IMG/VR virus record: IMGVR_UViG_3300032134_000011
Span: 1-33,691 of that record
Length of the DNA: 33,691 nt
Direction: 5' to 3' (one strand)
Source: a virus
Within the stretch, counting starts at the first letter, position 1, and every line of letters begins with the position of its first letter. A program made the translations under genes and the position numbers. Shown here piece after piece: positions 15,984 through 32,481 of this stretch. The notes under the pieces were generated by a model, which was given only the letters and a program-made list of their open reading frames with translations, did no database searches and had not been told where the DNA came from.

Positions 15984-17323
15984 CCAATTACCTCCATCTC
16001 AAATTGTTTCTTTTCTAATTCGTGGTTTGTGGCAGCTTTCAAGTCATCAAAGAGTTTACAGCTATCACCTGCATATCCAACTTCAACTGAGCCTGTAGTT
16101 CCATATCTATTCTTAGACACCACCAGTTGTAATTCATTTTCAGTCCATACGCGACCAGTAGTATCTTCTTCTCCGTATCTTGATATATATGGATAGTGTG
16201 TGAATGCTACTATTTCAGCATCTTGTTCTAAGTTTCCAGACTCGGCAAGATCAGATAACCTTGGAACCGCATCGGTTCTGTATTCTATATTCCTATTAAG
16301 CTGTGATACAAGAAGTACACACATATCTTCTGATTTGGCAAGCCATTTATACTGCTTAGTTGTATCTCCTATTTTAAGCCTTAAGTCACGCCTATCGTTA
16401 GGTTGATATTCTATGAGACCTATGTGGTCATCTATCACAACGTCTGGTTTCACGTTCTTTATTTCGTGGAATGTATCAGATATTGTTCTTATATCATCAA
16501 ACATAAAAAGTTTATCTTTGTAGTTTTCGTATATGAAATCCATCGCCTCGTTTACTTTTGCTTTGCTGGCAGGTACGCCGTGCCTTAGATTTCTATATGA
16601 TATTGTATCACCCTCCATAGCTATGAACTTCTTCATCATCTCGGTATTCGGCATCTCCCTATTGAACATAGCTACCTTGTATCCGTTCATAACTAGATTT
16701 CTCGCAATGTTTGCTGCTACCGTAGTCTTTCCATTCGCAGGTCTTCCTGCTATAATAGTTATCTCACCCCTTGTCATTCCAGATATTACTTTATCAAACT
16801 TGTTTATACCAGTTTTAATATTTGTCCTTCTTTCGAAGATTGATTTTCTGGTTTCCTCAAGAACCTCTTCCATGTTAAACTCGTTAGAAGGTTGAAGCTT
16901 TATAAGATTACCTATAAGGGTATGTGAGTCATTAAGCAATTCTCCTATATCATTTGAGTTATCTTTCGTTAGACTGCCAAGCTTTTTAGAATATGTACCC
17001 AATCTTCTCCTAAGCCAATATCCGTGCAGCATCTTAGCGTAGTACTCAGCCCTTGATGGTGTAGCCTCGGATGTGGCTATTTCTGTTATATTGTATGCTA
17101 TTTCTTTAGTTATGCTATCTTTTTGTGGATAATTGTGTACTATACTTACCGCATCTATATCCTCGTCTCGTTCATCTAAGGATAAAATAGTTTCCCATAT
17201 ATTCTTATGGAACTTAAAATAGAATACATCCGGCTCTTCTATCCATTTCTGTACTAAATCTAAATTCTTCGGCTCCATCATCAGGGAACCGAGTAATGCT
17301 TTTTCTGTTGACTCGCTATACAA
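15980..17323 (-). CDS. dnaB-like: DnaB-type replicative DNA helicase
   Basis: The 447-aa protein has the DnaB order: an N-terminal helical domain opening with STEKALLGSLMM, a linker, and a RecA-type ATPase. Walker A is GRPANGKTT (193-201), Walker B is VVIDDHIGLI (295-304). Other motifs are LLVSQLNR (~337-344), DLAESGNLEQDAE (~358-370) and KNRYGTTG (~404-411). It should form the hexamer that unwinds DNA at the phage fork. No primase is seen in the window. The likely start is TTG 17323, 8 nt inside the methyltransferase gene; a weak ribosome site precedes it, so the exact start is less certain than the identity. Confidence 0.9.
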   Translation of the reverse strand: MYSESTEKALLGSLMMEPKNLDLVQKWIEEPDVFYFKFHKNIWETILSLDERDEDIDAVSIVHNYPQKDSITKEIAYNITEIATSEATPSRAEYYAKMLHGYWLRRRLGTYSKKLGSLTKDNSNDIGELLNDSHTLIGNLIKLQPSNEFNMEEVLEETRKSIFERRTNIKTGINKFDKVISGMTRGEITIIAGRPANGKTTVAANIARNLVMNGYKVAMFNREMPNTEMMKKFIAMEGDTISYRNLRHGVPASKAKVNEAMDFIYENYKDKLFMFDDIRTISDTFHEIKNVKPDVVIDDHIGLIEYQPNDRRDLRLKIGDTTKQYKWLAKSEDMCVLLVSQLNRNIEYRTDAVPRLSDLAESGNLEQDAEIVAFTHYPYISRYGEEDTTGRVWTENELQLVVSKNRYGTTGSVEVGYAGDSCKLFDDLKAATNHELEKKQFEMEVIG

Positions 17324-18008
17324 CCAACCTACCCTGCCTTTCTAATTGATCTACTCTCGTTAGTGATATTTCATAATAAATTTCATCTATTTCAGACCCT
17401 ATGTAATTTCTCTTATTGTCATAGGCAGCCTCAGCTGTGGTTCCTGAACCCATGAATGGGTCATAGACAATATCATTTTCCTTAGAACTTTTATTTACAA
17501 GATAAGAAATAAGTTCCACAGGTTTTTGTGTGGGATGTAATTTATTCCCTGTCCTTGCAAACTTTACTATGTTGGGGTCTCGCCCTCCGTTCAATAATCT
17601 TCTTCCCTTTGTGGCGAACAATATCATTTCATATTTAGGGGCATAATCACCCTTTAAATCGCCCATACTTGTGTTATTCTTTTCCCATATTAATATATTT
17701 TTAATTGTAAAATACCTTTCAAGAGATTGTTTGAATATATCTACATTGTGAAAAGAACAAAACATATATAGATGGGAATTTGTCTTGAGAATCCTATTGG
17801 CTTCTGCGCAGAAATCGTTCACCCAATCTAAATTATCGTCCCAATGTATGTTTCCATATCGTTCGGCTCTATGATTGCTTCTGAATTTCATTCCATACGG
17901 AGGGTCGGTTACGATAAGGTCAATGAATTTATTCTCCATTCTACCCATAGTATTCATACAATTCTCATTATGTATTTTATTAATCAATTTTTGGTGGGAT
18001 TCTGTCAA
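17316..18008 (-). CDS. Beta-class DNA methyltransferase (N6-adenine or N4-cytosine)
   Basis: The protein has 230 aa. Motif IV is DLIVTDPPYGMKF (DPPY at 35-38) near the N-terminus, HPTQKPVELISYL (158-170) comes later, and motif I/X is YDPFMGSGTTAEAA (182-195). Catalytic motif before the S-adenosylmethionine-binding motif is the beta-class order. The short target-recognition region between them gives no specificity. There is no restriction enzyme next to it, so self-marking against host restriction is likely. The start is TTG 18008, with AAAGGAAAT upstream. Confidence 0.85.
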   Translation of the reverse strand: MTESHQKLINKIHNENCMNTMGRMENKFIDLIVTDPPYGMKFRSNHRAERYGNIHWDDNLDWVNDFCAEANRILKTNSHLYMFCSFHNVDIFKQSLERYFTIKNILIWEKNNTSMGDLKGDYAPKYEMILFATKGRRLLNGGRDPNIVKFARTGNKLHPTQKPVELISYLVNKSSKENDIVYDPFMGSGTTAEAAYDNKRNYIGSEIDEIYYEISLTRVDQLERQGRLVV

Positions 18009-20822: not shown

Positions 20823-21456
20823 CTTTTTTCTCCTGTTCTTCGTTTATTAGTTGATCTATCCTGTTCATCACTTTCTTCAAGTCTGGCTTCACCACATCAC
20901 CACTTAACACGCTTTGCATTATCTTATCTTTCCACTCTTCAGAAAGTCCTTCCATCATTTCCTCTAACTTTTCAATATCTTCATCGGATAATGTGAGGTC
21001 TTGTTTTCTATAAACATCGTCAGCTATATTGCCAAGTCTATTTATTGCTCTCTTGAATCCATTGGTATTTGCACTTGCCAAGTTTTTATCTATATCAATA
21101 ACATACTCGGCGGTGTGTGGCTTACCCCTTTTGAATTGAACTCTTGCAGAGCCGGGAGAAAAGAACTCCCTCATTATCCCATTGTCTTCCAGTCTCAATA
21201 CACCAGTTACTATAACCCATTCGGCTCCTAAGAACTGTACTGGATTATCCCCTGCTGCAGACCAAGACCAACCAGGATATTCTTTCGTTAATTGATTACG
21301 CATATAAGCCTCTTCTACATAATCGAAACCATCTGGTCTCGTCTTTACATAGGCTTTAGGTGTAGTTCTTTGAGAAATACTTTTATGTTTTTCAATAAGG
21401 GCTTTACCTGCGGTTTCACCTGAAATCACTGCAATCTTATTTTTTTTATTAGCCAA
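20815..21456 (-). CDS. Rad52-like single-strand annealing protein candidate
   Basis: The protein has 213 aa. Motifs are YMRNQLTKEYPGWSWSAAGD, a beta region EWVIVTGVLRLED, and ASANTNGFKRAINRLGNIAD. These recall the Rad52/Sak superfamily, where G-W-x-W-x-x near the first third and A-x-x-x-A-L/F-K-R-A-x-x-x-x-G in the helix are conserved. The C-terminal ~60 residues are acidic and helical. The start is TTG 21456, with AAGGAG eight bases upstream. It lies between the SSB and the Cas4-like exonuclease, forming a complete recombination triad. Confidence 0.7.
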   Translation of the reverse strand: MANKKNKIAVISGETAGKALIEKHKSISQRTTPKAYVKTRPDGFDYVEEAYMRNQLTKEYPGWSWSAAGDNPVQFLGAEWVIVTGVLRLEDNGIMREFFSPGSARVQFKRGKPHTAEYVIDIDKNLASANTNGFKRAINRLGNIADDVYRKQDLTLSDEDIEKLEEMMEGLSEEWKDKIMQSVLSGDVVKPDLKKVMNRIDQLINEEQEKKDG

Positions 21457-22342
21457 AATTTATCTCCTTAAATTTATCTTTGTTATACGGACACACTTCC
21501 CGAGCGTCGCAATAGAATTCACATTTCTTTCCGCCCCATCTTTCTTCTTCACTACATATTTCTGGTAACTTACCAAGCGTTAAAGAGTTAATGAGGGAAT
21601 CTCTTTTTTCTGTAAATTTATCTATGATATGATCATTGTGTATGTAAGGAACTTCTATTAAATAGATTTTACGCTCAACGCCACGATCTCTGGCTGCTTG
21701 TATGCCACCATCACGAACAGTTACCTGAACATACATATTTTTTATTTCTTTCCCTTGTTTCTCAAGCATATATCTGTAGCAATTTATTTGCCACTCCCAG
21801 TCGCCAAGGTCTGCTTTCTCTGGATTCATCCAATATCTTCTTACCTTCTTTGGGTCTCCCTTTTGCCCCCACTTACCCTTCCGCAGATACACAGCACCCG
21901 ATGGGTCATCCTCTAAATAGAAGTCTAAACCTAAAGCCTGTCCAACTTTATACGAGCCTACATTCTTATAGTCAATAAGTGATTTACTCTCTTCATCATA
22001 CAAATCTACAATTCCAGTTATATCAAGACCTTCCATAGCTATTTCAGAAGTACCCTCGTCAGCATTGTTTTCAAGACGCGAGTGATGTAGAGTACCTGCC
22101 AAGGCAAAAGCGTGCTCCTGTGGGTCAATATAATAATCTTCAGTTCTTTTAAGGTAAGCCTCGCAAGTACCAATGAGGCATTCCGTTACGGATGGTTTAC
22201 GATCTGGGTCTCTTTGCTTCGCCAATTCTCTTAACATTGGCATAACTATTCCCATTTTTTCTAATTTTAATTTTCCATTCTCGAATATATCTTCAAAAGA
22301 TACTTCTTCACCGTCTGGGTATTTAAATCCTACTGCTGGCAT
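21449..22342 (-). CDS. Cas4/RecB-like PD-(D/E)xK exonuclease with Fe-S cysteines
   Basis: The protein has 297 aa. Motifs in order: Cys55/Cys60 (ECLIGTC), the histidine of GTLHHSRLE (86-87), ITGIVDLYD (Asp113), SLIDYKN (Asp124-x-Lys126), WQINCYRYML (Gln185), then CEFYCDAREVC (274-284). Together this is the RecB-family nuclease core. The four-cysteine set at the two ends typically holds a 4Fe-4S cluster in Cas4 and AddB. It would resect DNA ends to give substrate for the annealing protein encoded next to it. No CRISPR genes are nearby. Promoter candidate at 22375-22403. Confidence 0.8.
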   Translation of the reverse strand: MPAVGFKYPDGEEVSFEDIFENGKLKLEKMGIVMPMLRELAKQRDPDRKPSVTECLIGTCEAYLKRTEDYYIDPQEHAFALAGTLHHSRLENNADEGTSEIAMEGLDITGIVDLYDEESKSLIDYKNVGSYKVGQALGLDFYLEDDPSGAVYLRKGKWGQKGDPKKVRRYWMNPEKADLGDWEWQINCYRYMLEKQGKEIKNMYVQVTVRDGGIQAARDRGVERKIYLIEVPYIHNDHIIDKFTEKRDSLINSLTLGKLPEICSEEERWGGKKCEFYCDAREVCPYNKDKFKEINFG

Positions 22343-22764: not shown

Positions 22765-24108
22765 CTATACATCAGGATATAGATAATTCAAGTTAAAATT
22801 ATTAACAACATATTGCTTATCAATCTCACTTGTAAGGATTGGGTAGTTATTGAACTTCCTTACTCGTCCAATTATATACTGACTTATGTCATCCAATTCA
22901 AGCATATCTATAAAGTCAGCCAAACCTAAATCTCCTTCGGTCATAAATTTATATGTTTTAGAATCCCAATTCTCAGGAACCTCATCCATTACTTTACCAA
23001 GTGCTATCCCCTTCTCTACTATTGATTGGCATATAGTAATCCAATTCTTTATTTTGGTAGGATTATTGGTTCCAGAGTGGTATCTAAATTCTATTGTACC
23101 AAGATATACTCTTGCGTGTAAATTGAGTCCGTGGTATCTTGCATCATTATATTTACTCATAGAAGGGGACTCGCCGCAAGTGTCGTACCATGTTTGTATA
23201 AACTCTTCATTTGAATCTATTCTTATTATCTCACTTTTGCCCATCTTCATTGATTTGCACCAATTAGATTTGATTCTCGATTTTGGCATCATACTAAAGA
23301 CTACTCCTTCAAATGATTTCATAACAACGGCTATCCCCCTCAGGTCTTTGTAAAATAAATCTCTTGCATCTATATGTACGTGCAATCCACAAGACCTATT
23401 TACAATGAAATCATTGTCAAGAAGATAAGAGCAAATCTTATCTATTTCGAAAAACAAATGATCTCCTCGCATTGGCTTTGATACAAATTCAAAACCCCTA
23501 TATTCAGAATCACTTTCAATACTTCCATCAGAAGTAACACCGAATTCAGAGAAATTATCGTCATTTCTAATATCATCAGAACTACCGCCTGTAGTTTCAA
23601 TTTCTACGCCGACAGCTCTTTCGAACTTATTGGTTGAAAATGTATCACCCTCAACAGGAGGTTTCACTGTGCAACCATATTCAGTATCAAGACTTACATC
23701 ATCTCTTTCGTTATCAATACAGTAAGAGCACACACACATATCGTGATAATCACTGTATGGAGACTCCTCCCTTAATACTTCACAGTCACATATTGGGCAA
23801 TGCATAAAAATCTCGTAATAACAATCCTCGCAATAACAATCTCCGCCTTCTGTGGAATAAACATTATCATTAGAGTGAGCTTCTTCGCAACTTTCGCAAT
23901 GAAAGAACCTGAAACAAAAGCAATCATCGCAGTAGAAATCACCCTCAAACGTATTGCCCTCATCGCATTCAAACATATCTTCACAAGCATTACATAGGAA
24001 CATCTGATCAAAACACTCTTGACAGATTTTAGAACCTACCGATTCTACCATAACTCCCTTGCCCAACTCTTCTTCACACATTGGACAAGTCTTTACTGAA
24101 TTAGTCAT
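22765..24108 (-). CDS. Amidoligase with N-terminal array of zinc ribbons (first copy)
   Basis: The protein has 447 aa. Residues 8-130 hold eight CxxC pairs (8/11, 29/32, 39/42, 60/63, 71/74, 93/96, 104/107, 127/130), enough for four zinc sites. The C-terminal domain reads as a putative amidoligase (Amidoligase_2, glutamine-synthetase-like fold): AVGVEIETTGG (Glu169, Glu171), SDGSIE, FEFVSKPMRGD, SCGLHVHID (240-247), YHGLNLHA and GTIEFRYHSGT (337-347). The Glu, His and Arg residues of these motifs are the expected metal and ATP ligands. The family joins a carboxyl group to an amine using ATP. The second copy at 25639 and the amidotransferase at 24424 belong with it. The substrate is unknown. 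Confidence 0.8.
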   Translation of the reverse strand: MTNSVKTCPMCEEELGKGVMVESVGSKICQECFDQMFLCNACEDMFECDEGNTFEGDFYCDDCFCFRFFHCESCEEAHSNDNVYSTEGGDCYCEDCYYEIFMHCPICDCEVLREESPYSDYHDMCVCSYCIDNERDDVSLDTEYGCTVKPPVEGDTFSTNKFERAVGVEIETTGGSSDDIRNDDNFSEFGVTSDGSIESDSEYRGFEFVSKPMRGDHLFFEIDKICSYLLDNDFIVNRSCGLHVHIDARDLFYKDLRGIAVVMKSFEGVVFSMMPKSRIKSNWCKSMKMGKSEIIRIDSNEEFIQTWYDTCGESPSMSKYNDARYHGLNLHARVYLGTIEFRYHSGTNNPTKIKNWITICQSIVEKGIALGKVMDEVPENWDSKTYKFMTEGDLGLADFIDMLELDDISQYIIGRVRKFNNYPILTSEIDKQYVVNNFNLNYLYPDV

Positions 24109-24116
24109 ATTTTCTC

Positions 24117-24413
24117 CTATGCTATTCCGTAGTTAGCTGTTATTATATAAACAGCAAGGACACTAATCTCCTTAAGCCACCCAAGACTCTTTAGAGCATT
24201 ATACATTTCTTCCTCGGTATCAGCTTTTATCTCAATTCCTTCAAGTAGCTTAACCTGAGATTTAATATACTCTAAATATTCTTCGTACGACTTATCTGCC
24301 ATAAATGGATTTTTCTTAGCTCTTTTATAGAGCATTTTCATTACATAGCTTTTAGATTTTATCTGTATTTTATCAGCTATGCCAACAAAAACAGCCTTCT
24401 TTTTCTTTTTCAT
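24117..24413 (-). CDS. Small basic protein between amidotransferase and amidoligase
   Basis: The start is ATG 24413, with AGGAG seven bases upstream, 10 bp after the amidotransferase stop. The 98-aa product begins MKKKKKAVFVGIADKIQIK. It has a helical Lys/Glu-rich body and ends in a hydrophobic tail with a free Ala (VYIITANYGIA). No motif is known. Its position inside the enzyme cassette makes it a candidate carrier, regulator or substrate of the amidoligases; this is inference only. Confidence 0.65.
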   Translation of the reverse strand: MKKKKKAVFVGIADKIQIKSKSYVMKMLYKRAKKNPFMADKSYEEYLEYIKSQVKLLEGIEIKADTEEEMYNALKSLGWLKEISVLAVYIITANYGIA

Positions 24414-24423
24414 AGATTTACTC

Positions 24424-25596
24424 CTAAAGTTCAAATGGCGTACGACTCTTTTCGTAATCGTTGCAATGCTTACAGATCTTGTAACCGTTGAGTAAAATCA
24501 TGTCCTCAACTGGTTCAAAATCTCCACAATAAACACAAGGCTCCATACGGTTTGAGTCTTTGTTGCTGTAGTGATGGTGAGTATACTTTTTATTCTCGCA
24601 ATAGCTACAGACATAATCTCCATTTATCCATATCAAGTTTTCACCTTTTGTCTCTACTTTGCATTCTGAGCAATTAGCAATCCAATCTCCTCCATCGGTC
24701 AAGCGAAGACCCTCCTCGTATCCATCGTCTTTGCACTTGTAGCATATTCCGTCAGCCTTATAGGTTACCATCTGACAAAATTTGCAATGACTGCTATTGT
24801 TGGCGTAATTCGTTCCACCTGCATAATAAGTACTAACACCATAATAATTAGAGTGGCTCCAATTAGCATTTGTTTCTACCTCTACTGTATTAGCTTTCCA
24901 ATCCTTCCAAAATTCGGCAGTATTGAACTCATATACAGTATCGGTTGGTAGCTTGAATATCTCTATACAAAGACCAGCATCTTTCAATGCAATACCAAGA
25001 ATTTCTCTTGTAGATGCCCAAAATAGACATCTTGCTTTCTTCCAGTATGCTATATATAGAGGTCTACCTTCTTCGTGCATAAGATAAAGATTTTTGTAAT
25101 CTCTATCTATCCAACTCAACGCATAGTCGCCCTCAAGAAGATCAAATACCTCTTGGTACTTTTCTTTCTTGTTAAGCAACCCAAAAATAACTTCTGAATC
25201 AACTTGTACGTTTTTATCAATTTTCTTGGCAATCTCATTATGGTTTGCTATAATACCATTATGAGCACCTATGACGCTGCCCTTAACAAAAGGGTGAGCA
25301 TTCTGCTCTGTTACAACGCCCGTAGTTGCCAATCGTACATGTCCCAGAAAGACAGTAGTATCTTTATCAATTTTCTCAAGAATGTTGCACCAATCATCGC
25401 TGCAAACTAATTGATCTGAAGATTTAAGAGTTTTGTATACCAATTTTTCCGTTTTTGAAACGATGGCGAGACCAGTAGAATCCTTGCCTCTTATCGCCGA
25501 TTCAAATGTTAAATTGCTAACAATATCCTCTATCCTATCCATCTGTGATTCAGATTGCCAGCCTTCACGCTTGGCGAATCCGAAAATTCCACACAT
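24424..25596 (-). CDS. Class II glutamine amidotransferase with C-terminal zinc ribbons
   Basis: The protein has 390 aa. The N-terminal ~215 residues are a GATase type II (Ntn hydrolase) domain: Cys2 nucleophile in MCGIFGF after Met removal, IRGKDSTG (35-42), LGHVRLATTG (84-93), NAHPF, AHNGIIAN (111-118), VDSEVI (Asp133). No partner synthase domain is fused. Instead residues 271-378 carry six CxxC pairs (271/274, 285/288, 309/312, 330/333, 354/357, 375/378), three zinc ribbons of the same type as in the neighbouring amidoligases. The enzyme should release ammonia from glutamine, or act as an N-terminal-nucleophile amidase. The ribbons may dock it on its target or partners. Confidence 0.85.
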   Translation of the reverse strand: MCGIFGFAKREGWQSESQMDRIEDIVSNLTFESAIRGKDSTGLAIVSKTEKLVYKTLKSSDQLVCSDDWCNILEKIDKDTTVFLGHVRLATTGVVTEQNAHPFVKGSVIGAHNGIIANHNEIAKKIDKNVQVDSEVIFGLLNKKEKYQEVFDLLEGDYALSWIDRDYKNLYLMHEEGRPLYIAYWKKARCLFWASTREILGIALKDAGLCIEIFKLPTDTVYEFNTAEFWKDWKANTVEVETNANWSHSNYYGVSTYYAGGTNYANNSSHCKFCQMVTYKADGICYKCKDDGYEEGLRLTDGGDWIANCSECKVETKGENLIWINGDYVCSYCENKKYTHHHYSNKDSNRMEPCVYCGDFEPVEDMILLNGYKICKHCNDYEKSRTPFEL

Positions 25597-25638
25597 ATAT
25601 TATTCCTTTCTCTTTTTTGTTTACTTGTTACATTACCA

Positions 25639-27345
25639 CTATGAATGAGAACTATATGTCCATATAGTTTCTTTATCAGTATTATTAATTTCTGGTGAAT
25701 TACCTTCTATCATCTCATTAACATAGGGGATTAAATTAGAAACCCCCATTGCAGTTAAATAGTCTGAAAAATCTTTTGATTCTTTATTAATAAACAAGTC
25801 TAATACAGACTTTTTTTCTAAACTTAAAAATTGAGACCCATAGTCTGATATAGAAAGACAGAATAAAATCCAATTATTTATATAGTAATCGCTAATAGTG
25901 CCGTGATGATATCTGTATTCTATTGTTCCGTGTAAAAATCTTGAGTGTAAATTTAATCCTCTATATCTTGAATCATTATATTTTTCTGTAGTAGCTTGAG
26001 TATTATTCATTCTGTAATACCAAAGGTCGCAAAAATCTCTTGCATTCTTAACCCCCAAAATAATCTTTGAATCAATCTCATCCATTGGCTTTGAGTATCT
26101 GGATTCCATTCTATGTTTTGGAATCATTTTATATATAAAAGGCTCTAATGCTCTTGCTACCAGGAGTATTCCCTTTAACTGCTCTATTCCCATATAATAG
26201 GCATCGGTATGAACATGGAGACCACAAGTATTGTCTACAAAAAACTCCTCATCCCTTAGCCAACTGCAAAAAATTGATATTTTCTTCAGAGCATCGTCAC
26301 CAAACTCTGGTTCCATAATAAATTCTCTTCCGGATTCTCCGCCTATTGATCCATCGTAAGCATCTTTCCATCCAAGAGGATAATTGTATTCTCTACCATC
26401 TTCTGATTCCACATCGTAATTAACATCTACTGCCTCGATTTCTATCGCTACCGCAGTTTTACTTCTGTTAGCAATGTATTCTTTTCCTGAACCTAATGAT
26501 ATTTTATTAATAAGGCTCCTTGACAGCATTCTCGGTGGACTTGACATTACAGAAATTGCTTTTAAGTCAAAACATTTGCCACAATATCTATAAGAATCGT
26601 ACTCAAAGAATTTTTCATTAGCATAACTAACGCTACAGGATGTGCAAGTAAAAACTTTTATATCAAAACAATGCTGACAGACTTTATCACCTTTTAGTAA
26701 TTTTATTGATCTGTCTGTTATATAAAATTCTTTCTCGCACAAAGTACATTCATAGGTATATTCTTCGTAACAGTCTAAGCATAAATAACCCTCTCCTGAT
26801 ATATGGTAAGAATCATACTCTCCTACCCATTCACGACAAAATTCGCATTCCTCCTGCCATCCGTGTCTATTAAAACCTTGTTTCTCGGCAATCTTTTTAA
26901 GAAAATAACGAATATCCATTGATTCCATATTTTCTAACTCTAAGAAAGTCAGAGGTCTTATACCTCGATCAATAAGCACGGATAACTTAGAATCTCTTAA
27001 TCCACTCCTATGGCTTACAATTCTAATTCTATCATCTGTGTATTTCTTAACGATTACTACATAATGCGCTGCATCTTCACCATTCGCAGTTCTAATTGTA
27101 ACTAATTGACGATCTCTAAAAGAGTCAGAATCTGAAATCAATGCTATCTGTTTTTCGTGTAGATCGAACACCTTTCCAGGTATTTCTACTCTATAAATAT
27201 AAGGAGTATTTTCCGCAGTTCTTATGTGCGTTACTTCTCCAATGGAATTCCTCATTGTATCATCAAAGCCACTATCTTCATCTAAATCGGAGTCTCGAAG
27301 CAATATAAAGACTTTGTCTCCTACTTCAAATTTATGCTGCCTCAT
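25639..27345 (-). CDS. Amidoligase with SH3-like N-terminus and zinc ribbons (second copy)
   Basis: The protein has 568 aa. Residues 1-130 look like two small beta barrels (FEVGDKVFILL; QLVTIRTANGEDAAHYVVIV). Residues 167-258 hold six CxxC pairs (167/170, 189/192, 200/203, 223/226, 234/237, 255/258). The amidoligase domain follows: AVAIEIEAVD (Glu302, Glu304), DAYDGSIGGESG, CGLHVHTD (374-381), YRGLNLHS, GTIEYRYHHGT (473-483). It parallels the 22765-24108 product motif by motif, so the two are diverged paralogues; the N-terminal barrels are extra. AAGGA precedes the ATG. Substrate unknown. Confidence 0.8.
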   Translation of the reverse strand: MRQHKFEVGDKVFILLRDSDLDEDSGFDDTMRNSIGEVTHIRTAENTPYIYRVEIPGKVFDLHEKQIALISDSDSFRDRQLVTIRTANGEDAAHYVVIVKKYTDDRIRIVSHRSGLRDSKLSVLIDRGIRPLTFLELENMESMDIRYFLKKIAEKQGFNRHGWQEECEFCREWVGEYDSYHISGEGYLCLDCYEEYTYECTLCEKEFYITDRSIKLLKGDKVCQHCFDIKVFTCTSCSVSYANEKFFEYDSYRYCGKCFDLKAISVMSSPPRMLSRSLINKISLGSGKEYIANRSKTAVAIEIEAVDVNYDVESEDGREYNYPLGWKDAYDGSIGGESGREFIMEPEFGDDALKKISIFCSWLRDEEFFVDNTCGLHVHTDAYYMGIEQLKGILLVARALEPFIYKMIPKHRMESRYSKPMDEIDSKIILGVKNARDFCDLWYYRMNNTQATTEKYNDSRYRGLNLHSRFLHGTIEYRYHHGTISDYYINNWILFCLSISDYGSQFLSLEKKSVLDLFINKESKDFSDYLTAMGVSNLIPYVNEMIEGNSPEINNTDKETIWTYSSHS

Positions 27346-27878: not shown

Positions 27879-27918
27879 ATTCCAGTTTTATATATCCAAT
27901 TCCAGTTTTATATATCCA
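27879..27918. repeat. Exact 20-bp tandem duplication at a gene junction
   Basis: ATTCCAGTTTTATATATCCA occurs twice without a gap (27879-27898 and 27899-27918). On the minus strand the first-read copy encodes part of the glycosylase C-terminus. The second gives its last residues and TAA stop and runs up to the next gene's ATG at 27878. Confidence 0.85.
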
Positions 27919-28334
27919 GCATCCCAATAATACTCCATATCATCTGATTCTTCCCAATTAAATTTGGAATAATATTCATAATCTTTTCTCAATAAATTGC
28001 TTCTATGAGATGCGTGTAATTTACTATTACCTAACCATCGAGGCATTTCAATGTTATCTGATAGTCCTATCATATCCATAGTATTGTTATATCCTCTAAG
28101 TATCCATTCCTCTATCATTTTGTTCTTGTATAACAATAAAGCCTCTTCATACCCCTTCCACATAATAACCGCAGGGTGATTAAGCCAACCTGTATAAGAT
28201 TTACCAGATTTAGTTGGAACACCAGTTAAGGCGTTGAAAATCTGTAAAGCCTCTACACGCTGCTTACCCAGTCGTCTGTAGTCAAGACATTCAGCTGTCT
28301 TTTCAAAACTCTTATATGGTAAAAATGTTTGCAA
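27888..28334 (-). CDS. Pyrimidine-dimer DNA glycosylase-like protein (Pyr_excise / MSMEG_6728 type)
   Basis: The protein has 148 aa. MQTFLPYKSFEKTAECLDYR, RLGKQRVEALQI, NHPAVIMWKGYEEALLLYKN, EEWILRGYNNT, HASHRSNLLRKDYEYY and DDMEYYWDAGYI are the successive motifs of the family related to T4 endonuclease V. Members cut at UV-induced pyrimidine dimers or are uncharacterised relatives. The start is TTG 28334, with AAGGAG seven bases upstream; the family begins M-Q-T-F, so TTG is very probably right. Its C-terminal end is formed by the tandem repeat. Strong promoter candidate upstream at 28397-28426. Confidence 0.8.
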   Translation of the reverse strand: MQTFLPYKSFEKTAECLDYRRLGKQRVEALQIFNALTGVPTKSGKSYTGWLNHPAVIMWKGYEEALLLYKNKMIEEWILRGYNNTMDMIGLSDNIEMPRWLGNSKLHASHRSNLLRKDYEYYSKFNWEESDDMEYYWDAGYIKLELDI

Positions 28335-30282: not shown

Positions 30283-30777
30283 TCAGGTTATTAGGTTTCC
30301 ATTCTCATCATAGATATTTTTATTTAATCTCCATTCCAATTTATACTCTTCAGAGTATCGTCCTCCATTATACTTTTCGCAGCACTTACCACAAGCCCTC
30401 TTCTTAGATGTTCGTCTGTAACTCTGGTGCTCGTATCCGCAATTATTACAGCATCGAGACCATTTACCTCTGGGTTTATTCGCACCACTTGAGCATCTCT
30501 CTCCTGTGCATCCAATACTCTTAGCTATGGTTCTCCATATTCTATTATGTCCATTGCGAGAGCCCGCGAGAGCGTGAGCAATCTCGTGCAATATAGTATT
30601 TCTGATTACTTTATTATCATTAATCTCCGTGTAAAGAATCGAGAGATATATTGTTTTTTCAGAATATTTGCATAAACCAAGATGTGATTTGCTCTCATCA
30701 AATTTAAGTTTCCAGCCATTGAGTTTATGTTTCTCCATAAGGTCTCTGGCTAAACAAATTGTTTCAGTTAGTTTCAT
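30283..30777 (-). CDS. SprT-like zinc metalloprotease
   Basis: The protein has 164 aa. The HExxH motif is HEIAHAL (His64, Glu65, His68) in TILHEIAHALAGSRNGHN, with His77 in G-H-N as third ligand. A C-terminal zinc ribbon is formed by C110-x-x-C113 and C129-x-x-C132. This is the SprT/Spartan layout; bacterial and phage members are poorly characterised, while eukaryotic Spartan cleaves proteins cross-linked to DNA. The N-terminal region (CLARDLMEKHKLNGWKLKFD) also fits the family. A role in clearing proteins from replicating DNA is an inference. Confidence 0.85.
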   Translation of the reverse strand: MKLTETICLARDLMEKHKLNGWKLKFDESKSHLGLCKYSEKTIYLSILYTEINDNKVIRNTILHEIAHALAGSRNGHNRIWRTIAKSIGCTGERCSSGANKPRGKWSRCCNNCGYEHQSYRRTSKKRACGKCCEKYNGGRYSEEYKLEWRLNKNIYDENGNLIT

Positions 30778-32046: not shown

Positions 32047-32191
32047 AGATATTACACCGAAACAGATAAAACGAATGGAAAAGGTAATAGACGAAGTGAA
32101 AAATAAAAAAAGACCGATCAGGGCAGAAGTAATGCCGTGTACGGTACCGGCTTGGGGTTCAATGAGAAAAGATGAAGGAGAAGACAAATGA
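32033..32191 (+). CDS. 52-aa basic hypothetical protein
   Basis: ATG 32033 overlaps the previous gene by 14 nt and the stop overlaps the next ATG as ATGA. The product is MAYNRDITPKQIKRMEKVID, a charged helix, then RPIRAEVMPCTVPAWG. It carries the ribosome site (AAGGAG) of the next gene. Coupled position supports it; function unknown. Confidence 0.6.
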   Translation: MAYNRDITPKQIKRMEKVIDEVKNKKRPIRAEVMPCTVPAWGSMRKDEGEDK

Positions 32192-32481
32192 GAAAACTAG
32201 ATATAGGTGGTCACGAATATAAAGTAAAATTCATGGATGGCGAAAAATGTGGTGAAGGAAATAAGTATTTGTTTGGAATGAACAATCCACGTACTTGCGA
32301 AATATTCTTGGATGAGAAGCTTGTAACGTCAAGAAGGAATGAAACTTTCTTACACGAAGTAATTCATGCAATTCTTGTAAATACCGGCTGCGCTCATGAC
32401 GAGGGTATTATTGAAACACTTGCAAATGGTTTTCATCAACTAGGAGTAGGAGATTACTTATGGCGAAAAACGGGGAAATAG
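32188..32481 (+). CDS. Small HExxH metalloprotease-like protein (ImmA/IrrE-type)
   Basis: The 97-aa protein has AAGGAG upstream. RNETFLHEVIHAILVNTG contains His56-Glu57...His60, and IIETLANGFHQLG provides Glu76 as the third ligand. This is the gluzincin-like arrangement of small phage and ImmA/IrrE-type peptidases. The N-terminal half is a beta sheet. ImmA proteins cut repressors; whether this one acts on a host or phage regulator cannot be read. Confidence 0.7.
   Translation: MRKLDIGGHEYKVKFMDGEKCGEGNKYLFGMNNPRTCEIFLDEKLVTSRRNETFLHEVIHAILVNTGCAHDEGIIETLANGFHQLGVGDYLWRKTGK

Follow-up and report, generated by a model that had tools for sequence, protein, structure and literature searches.

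What do two amidoligase-like enzymes and a glutamine amidotransferase do when they are encoded together in a phage, each with an array of paired CxxC motifs, and do they form a system that has not been described before? We addressed this in a viral record from IMG/VR (33691 bases; the window), for which the first-pass annotation had described three directly adjacent minus-strand genes, with zinc ribbons as a module shared by two unrelated enzyme folds. Two amidoligases (ligases A and B) and a class II glutamine amidotransferase (GATase) are indeed present as minus-strand ORFs and their families were confirmed with Pfam and PHROGs, but the genes are not directly adjacent, as a conserved gene for a 98-residue protein, here called S, sits between the GATase and ligase B. 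The cassette and its neighbours are as follows.

Pyrimidine dimer DNA glycosylase-like gene: 27888-28334, minus strand; PF03013, 6.5e-24
Ligase A: 25639..27345, minus strand; 568 aa, with an SH3/KOW-like region (~1-110), three LIM-like treble-clef modules (167-258) and a glutamine synthetase (GS)-like Amidoligase_2 core (~290-560)
Class II (Ntn) GATase: 24424..25596, minus strand; 390 aa, with a putative Cys2 nucleophile and three CxxC pairs in a C-terminal tail
S: 24117..24413, minus strand (alternative ORF start 24434); 98 aa, conserved small helical protein
Ligase B: 22765..24108, minus strand; 447 aa, with four CxxC-x17-19-CxxC modules (8-130) followed by a GS-like Amidoligase_2 core (~156-373)
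PD-(D/E)XK exonuclease: 21449-22342, minus-strand block; Pfam

The left part of the window holds plus-strand virion genes (tail spike, internal virion protein), while the cassette lies in a minus-strand block that also encodes a DnaB-type helicase, a DNA methyltransferase and the exonuclease, and is placed between the glycosylase-like and exonuclease genes. The GATase stop and the S start are ~10 bases apart in the window and overlap in two related contigs (L001 and L008), so translation of the two may be coupled. This operon layout fits a single complex of the enzymes, which, as first proposed, would act together on a target that the fingers hold.

Ligases A and B and the GATase

Both ligases match Amidoligase_2 (PF12224) far above the curated cut-off of 22 bits, ligase A with 83.6 bits (2.7e-23) and ligase B with 97.3 bits (1.7e-27). 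The predicted structure of ligase A (pLDDT 87, from 48 sequences) gives the GS-like amidoligase fold that had been proposed, and for ligase B this fold is predicted from the profile match. The best solved folds for the ligase A core (residues 290-560) were YbdK (Z 13.4, with 240 residues aligned at rmsd 4.2), plant glutamate-cysteine ligase (Z 12.7) and glutamine synthetases (~Z 11). YbdK and glutamate-cysteine ligase, both GS-like carboxylate-amine ligases with ~12-14% identity to ligase A, are metabolic enzymes that work on their own, with neither finger arrays nor a GATase partner. Among viral models the best matches were phage amidoligases, one of which is recorded as "LIM domain containing protein".

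Across aligned rows of both ligase types E302, E304, D331, S333, E341, H377, H379, R412, N457, R460, N465, H467, R469, E476, R478 and H480 (ligase A numbering) are invariant, and both enzymes therefore look active. The core fold and conserved motifs are shared with Amidoligase_2 proteins of phages and bacteria, whereas a long Cys-rich N-terminus was seen in only one of the best 80 bacterial loci, an Elusimicrobia MAG amidoligase (L237:5503-6864) whose N-terminus has 22 CxxC matches, in a spacing unlike that of the phage arrays. A quickly built tree of the ligase cores, made without bootstrap, places the cassette ligases in one group (SH-aLRT 98). We also considered that ligase A might have arisen in this phage by recent duplication of ligase B and rejected this, as the two fall in separate subgroups across contigs in the same tree.

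The GATase matches GATase_6 (1.4e-16) and GATase_7 (1.2e-12) in Pfam, with GATase_4 also above cut-off, and its profile matches GlmS. Residues C2, R88, T91, H101, N113, G114 and D133 show no variation in 46 rows, so that the N-terminal Cys after Met and the glutamine-site Arg, Asn-Gly and Asp are all kept, in agreement with the predicted class II assignment. Taken from these profiles and motifs, ATP-dependent, glutamine-fed amide formation by the cassette enzymes is a well supported prediction.

Distribution and partner genes

The arrangement GATase, S, ligase B, with or without ligase A upstream, recurs in ~70 viral contigs, which include near-copies, and about a dozen contigs carry GATase, S and ligase B with no ligase A upstream. 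The core of the cassette is therefore these three genes, and ligase A is dispensable to it. Contigs L012, L014 and L016, which lack ligase A, have a close relative of the pyrimidine dimer glycosylase-like gene immediately before the GATase, on its upstream side. None of the cultured phages and bacterial genomes searched has the cassette, and a pattern-matched genome scan found none in bacteria or prophages among the best 80 loci; the database searches may omit records very near the window. Likewise, tblastn of S against 50,697 phage records gave nothing, and alignments of the ligases in those records cover the core only.

Relatives of the window also carry a γ-glutamylamine cyclotransferase (GGACT, PF06094), which was found in 44/50 cassette contigs versus 18/50 other amidoligase contigs, counts that are non-independent because the contigs are related. 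In all 29 contigs checked it is encoded on the other strand, at a distance of 5.5-9.9 kb upstream from the GATase. There is no cyclotransferase in the window, which ends before the expected place; in contig L001 the gene lies past an exonuclease-like gene, and in the window that gene runs off the end. Using tblastn with the L001 cyclotransferase against phage records we obtained one record, and hence no base rate. The GGACT family acts in γ-glutamyl-amine chemistry, and its presence in the relatives suggests that the cassette belongs to chemistry of this type. Two contigs of 80 kb and 64 kb (L016/L176 and L113/L118) each contain two cassettes and two cyclotransferases, reflecting either two phage genomes per contig or a true duplication.

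Relation to known phage amidoligase sets

The earlier statement that no phage system of this form had been described is not supported, as phage sets of amidoligase and GATase, with cyclotransferase, ATP-grasp and COOH-NH2 ligase genes in addition, are known, albeit not in exactly this form (PMC5498523, PMC11945000, PMC10580990). A cassette of two amidoligases, an ATP-grasp enzyme, a GATase and a cyclotransferase is conserved in phiEco32, RIO-1, 7-11, PA11, tf, LUZ24, PaP3 and CW02, with PSA-HP1 also among the carriers, and has been assigned a role in peptidoglycan modification against superinfection, citing Hardies 2013 and Iyer (PMC5498523). The same peptidoglycan-modification idea is repeated elsewhere (PMC11945000, PMC10580990), and these papers give no experimental proof of the target or purpose of the kin cassettes (PMC5498523, PMC11945000, PMC10580990).

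The cassette resembles the phiEco32/RIO-1/LUZ24-type sets in having amidoligases, a class II GATase and, in its relatives, a γ-glutamyl cyclotransferase in one phage, and an amidoligase and a class II GATase stand in one operon here as they do in the seven-gene phage cassette. It differs in that its two amidoligases are of one clade and carry LIM-like arrays, its GATase has a CxxC tail and S is obligate, and in that the cyclotransferase of the relatives is encoded outside the cassette, 5-10 kb away and on the other strand. A further apparent difference is that no ATP-grasp gene lies inside the cassette and that the COOH-NH2 ligase (PF14395) was found in 0/50 relatives, in incomplete contigs and with silent controls, although the PF14395 model does recognise proteins of Slicky01 and PAS59, two phages in which PF14395, GATase and amidoligase genes are near one another. 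RimK was also found in 0/50 relatives, with a model that only grazes known phage ATP-grasps. We conclude that the cassette is real and conserved, a distinct version of a type of phage gene set already known, with its own obligate parts, of which we found no description in the literature searched. By analogy it probably works like the phiEco32/RIO-1/LUZ24-type sets, but we do not count it among them, given its own obligate parts and the searches that found no COOH-NH2 ligase or ATP-grasp gene.

From this kinship, a cell-wall peptide is the likeliest acceptor, and our preferred reading, to which we give roughly even chances, is of a glutamine-fed, ATP-dependent amide-forming set with fingers and S as docking parts and most likely such a peptide as its substrate. 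For the detailed chemistry, complex formation, target and purpose we infer the following. The GATase would free ammonia from glutamine, and the GS-like ligases would use ATP to activate a carboxylate, to which they would then couple this ammonia or a different amine. Docking through the LIM-like arrays and S would hold the set in one assembly and recruit the acceptor; in a peptidoglycan precursor this might be the carboxyl of a glutamate or of diaminopimelate, and the resulting change in the wall during infection could shut out other phages or tune lysis.

Glutamine-fed carboxyl amidation is what the predicted cassette chemistry would have in common with MurT/GatD and AsnB, although MurT/GatD come from other enzyme families. 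MurT is related to the Mur ligases and is not GS-like, GatD falls outside the class II GATases, and AsnB-type enzymes likewise carry out glutamine-fed amidation of a peptidoglycan carboxyl. For MurT/GatD this activity on bacterial peptidoglycan is described in PMC3267633. Counting against a wall target, we identified no wall-binding domain or secretion signal, and the cassette has DNA-metabolism neighbours (the exonuclease at 21449-22342 and the glycosylase at 27888-28334), though known cassettes likewise sit among DNA-metabolism genes (PMC5498523). The searches that gave no PF14395 ligase, and the lack of an ATP-grasp gene in the cassette and of a cyclotransferase in the window, weigh on the same side.

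These surrounding replication and recombination genes would also suit a cassette that makes a modified DNA base shielding the phage DNA. Class II GATase domains act in deoxyarchaeosine-type chemistry (Gat-QueC), which again speaks for a DNA product, but TGT/DpdA-type (PF01702) and thymidylate-synthase-type (PF00303) enzymes were each found in 0/50 cassette contigs, with positive controls and in contigs that are incomplete, and we regard this explanation as very improbable. Annotations of phage amidoligase cassettes go back years, while the literature cited here demonstrates no product for them. This compact form, in which GATase, S and ligase B are the obligate genes and a proposed docking module is conserved on both enzyme types, offers a small, testable set for finding what phage amidoligases modify and whether the infected cell is protected from other phages.

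The CxxC arrays

The CxxC modules reported at first are present, three in ligase A, four in ligase B and three in the GATase, with paired motifs starting at the following residues.

Ligase A: 167/189, 200/223, 234/255
Ligase B: 8/29, 39/60, 71/93, 104/127
GATase: 271/285 (short, spacing 10), 309/330, 354/375

As expected from the first-pass annotation, the finger cysteines are conserved in homologous loci, in alignments of all three enzymes with homologues of roughly 20-65% identity. All twelve module cysteines of ligase A are invariant or >90% conserved (48-row alignment, ligase B rows included), as are the eight in the last two modules of ligase B (40 homologues), while C309, C312, C330 and C333 show no variation across the 46 GATase rows. 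The arrays are therefore not due to chance, since core pairs are kept across homologues. Module number differs among the relatives, and in other contigs many GATases carry a single pair. Arrays also occur on phage amidoligases outside the cassette lineage in a few contigs (L042, L048); one of these (L048:1-7164) has five consecutive amidoligase ORFs around one GATase, four of them with CxxC arrays.

For ligase A, at least, the label of zinc ribbon is less apt than that of LIM-like treble clef (hairpin, hairpin, helix), which is what the model shows. Using DSSP, the CxxC motifs at 167, 200 and 234 were assigned to hairpins, and those at 189, 223 and 255 begin helices H190-195, H224-230 and H256-268. 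We call the ligase modules LIM-like only, because their inter-module spacer is 6-7 residues whereas a LIM domain proper has two fingers and a two-residue spacer. The modules would be expected to bind zinc.

Comparison of array profiles gave a probability of 97 for ligase A versus B and 85 for ligase B versus the GATase tail, but was weak (37) for ligase A versus the GATase tail; each real score beat all 60 control shuffles of the non-cysteine columns. The proposal of one module on two unrelated folds is therefore upheld in that the arrays are similar beyond their cysteines, and is weak where ligase A and the GATase are compared directly. Common descent of the GATase tail and the ligase arrays is plausible from these profiles but unproven, as treble clefs are subject to shared constraints. 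A regex test of module similarity was discarded, as it matched CxxC sites of one module with those of another and had ligases of later loci among its controls.

LIM-type arrays, like SH3-like domains, commonly serve to bind proteins, and the arrays here are conserved and form a large addition to the catalytic cores. Together with the N-terminus of ligase A (~1-110), which has KOW/Tudor/SH3-like PDB matches with weak E-values, this would favour a protein as the molecule that is amidated or tagged, such as host RNA polymerase, the ribosome, or a defence or virion protein, recognised by the fingers and the SH3/KOW-like region. We consider such a target possible but rather doubtful, given that the locus has no candidate target protein except S, and that the cyclotransferase and kin cassettes indicate small peptides with γ-glutamyl links, as in the preferred cell-wall reading.

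The small protein S

Every complete cassette carries S between the GATase and ligase B, and a search with S only gave 65 loci, in all of which GATase and ligase B adjoin within the stretches examined. S had no match above cut-off in Pfam, and none in PHROGs or a PDB fold search; DUF5312 was considered as its family and dismissed, the matches being weak and below cut-off. S is thus a new small protein family tied to the cassette. Its model has three confident helices (core pLDDT >90) between weakly modelled N- and C-terminal tails.

As the sole obligate non-enzyme partner, found nowhere else and encoded between the GATase and ligase B, S could itself be the substrate, a carrier or modifier with a side chain or C-terminus that is amidated or conjugated as in Pup or LysW, and the presence of its weakly modelled tails in nearly all alignment rows would agree with this. 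However, no Asp, Glu or Lys is invariant in the S alignment, K19 and K21 alternate with Arg, and the C-terminal residues vary (GIA, GV, AIS, NIT), so that S lacks the conserved acceptor or donor residue of a Pup/PafA-like small protein. The core is also a confident helical domain and not a disordered tag, and we judge a substrate role for S to be improbable. A conjugation or tagging machine, in which a LIM-like scaffold, two GS-like ligases and the GATase would modify S or reach a host protein through it, is similarly hard to credit; if true, it would represent a virus-encoded amide-tagging system.

Other features of the window

A tRNA search of the window found none. The DNA methyltransferase ORF (17316-18008, minus strand; 230 aa) adjoins the helicase gene and matches only positions 116-349 of 743 in phrog_67, and is a short or split form. 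On the other side of the cassette there is a gene for a SprT-like metallopeptidase (30283-30777, minus strand; 6e-12), with a second, weaker SprT/IrrE-like ORF on the opposite strand (32188-32481, plus strand).
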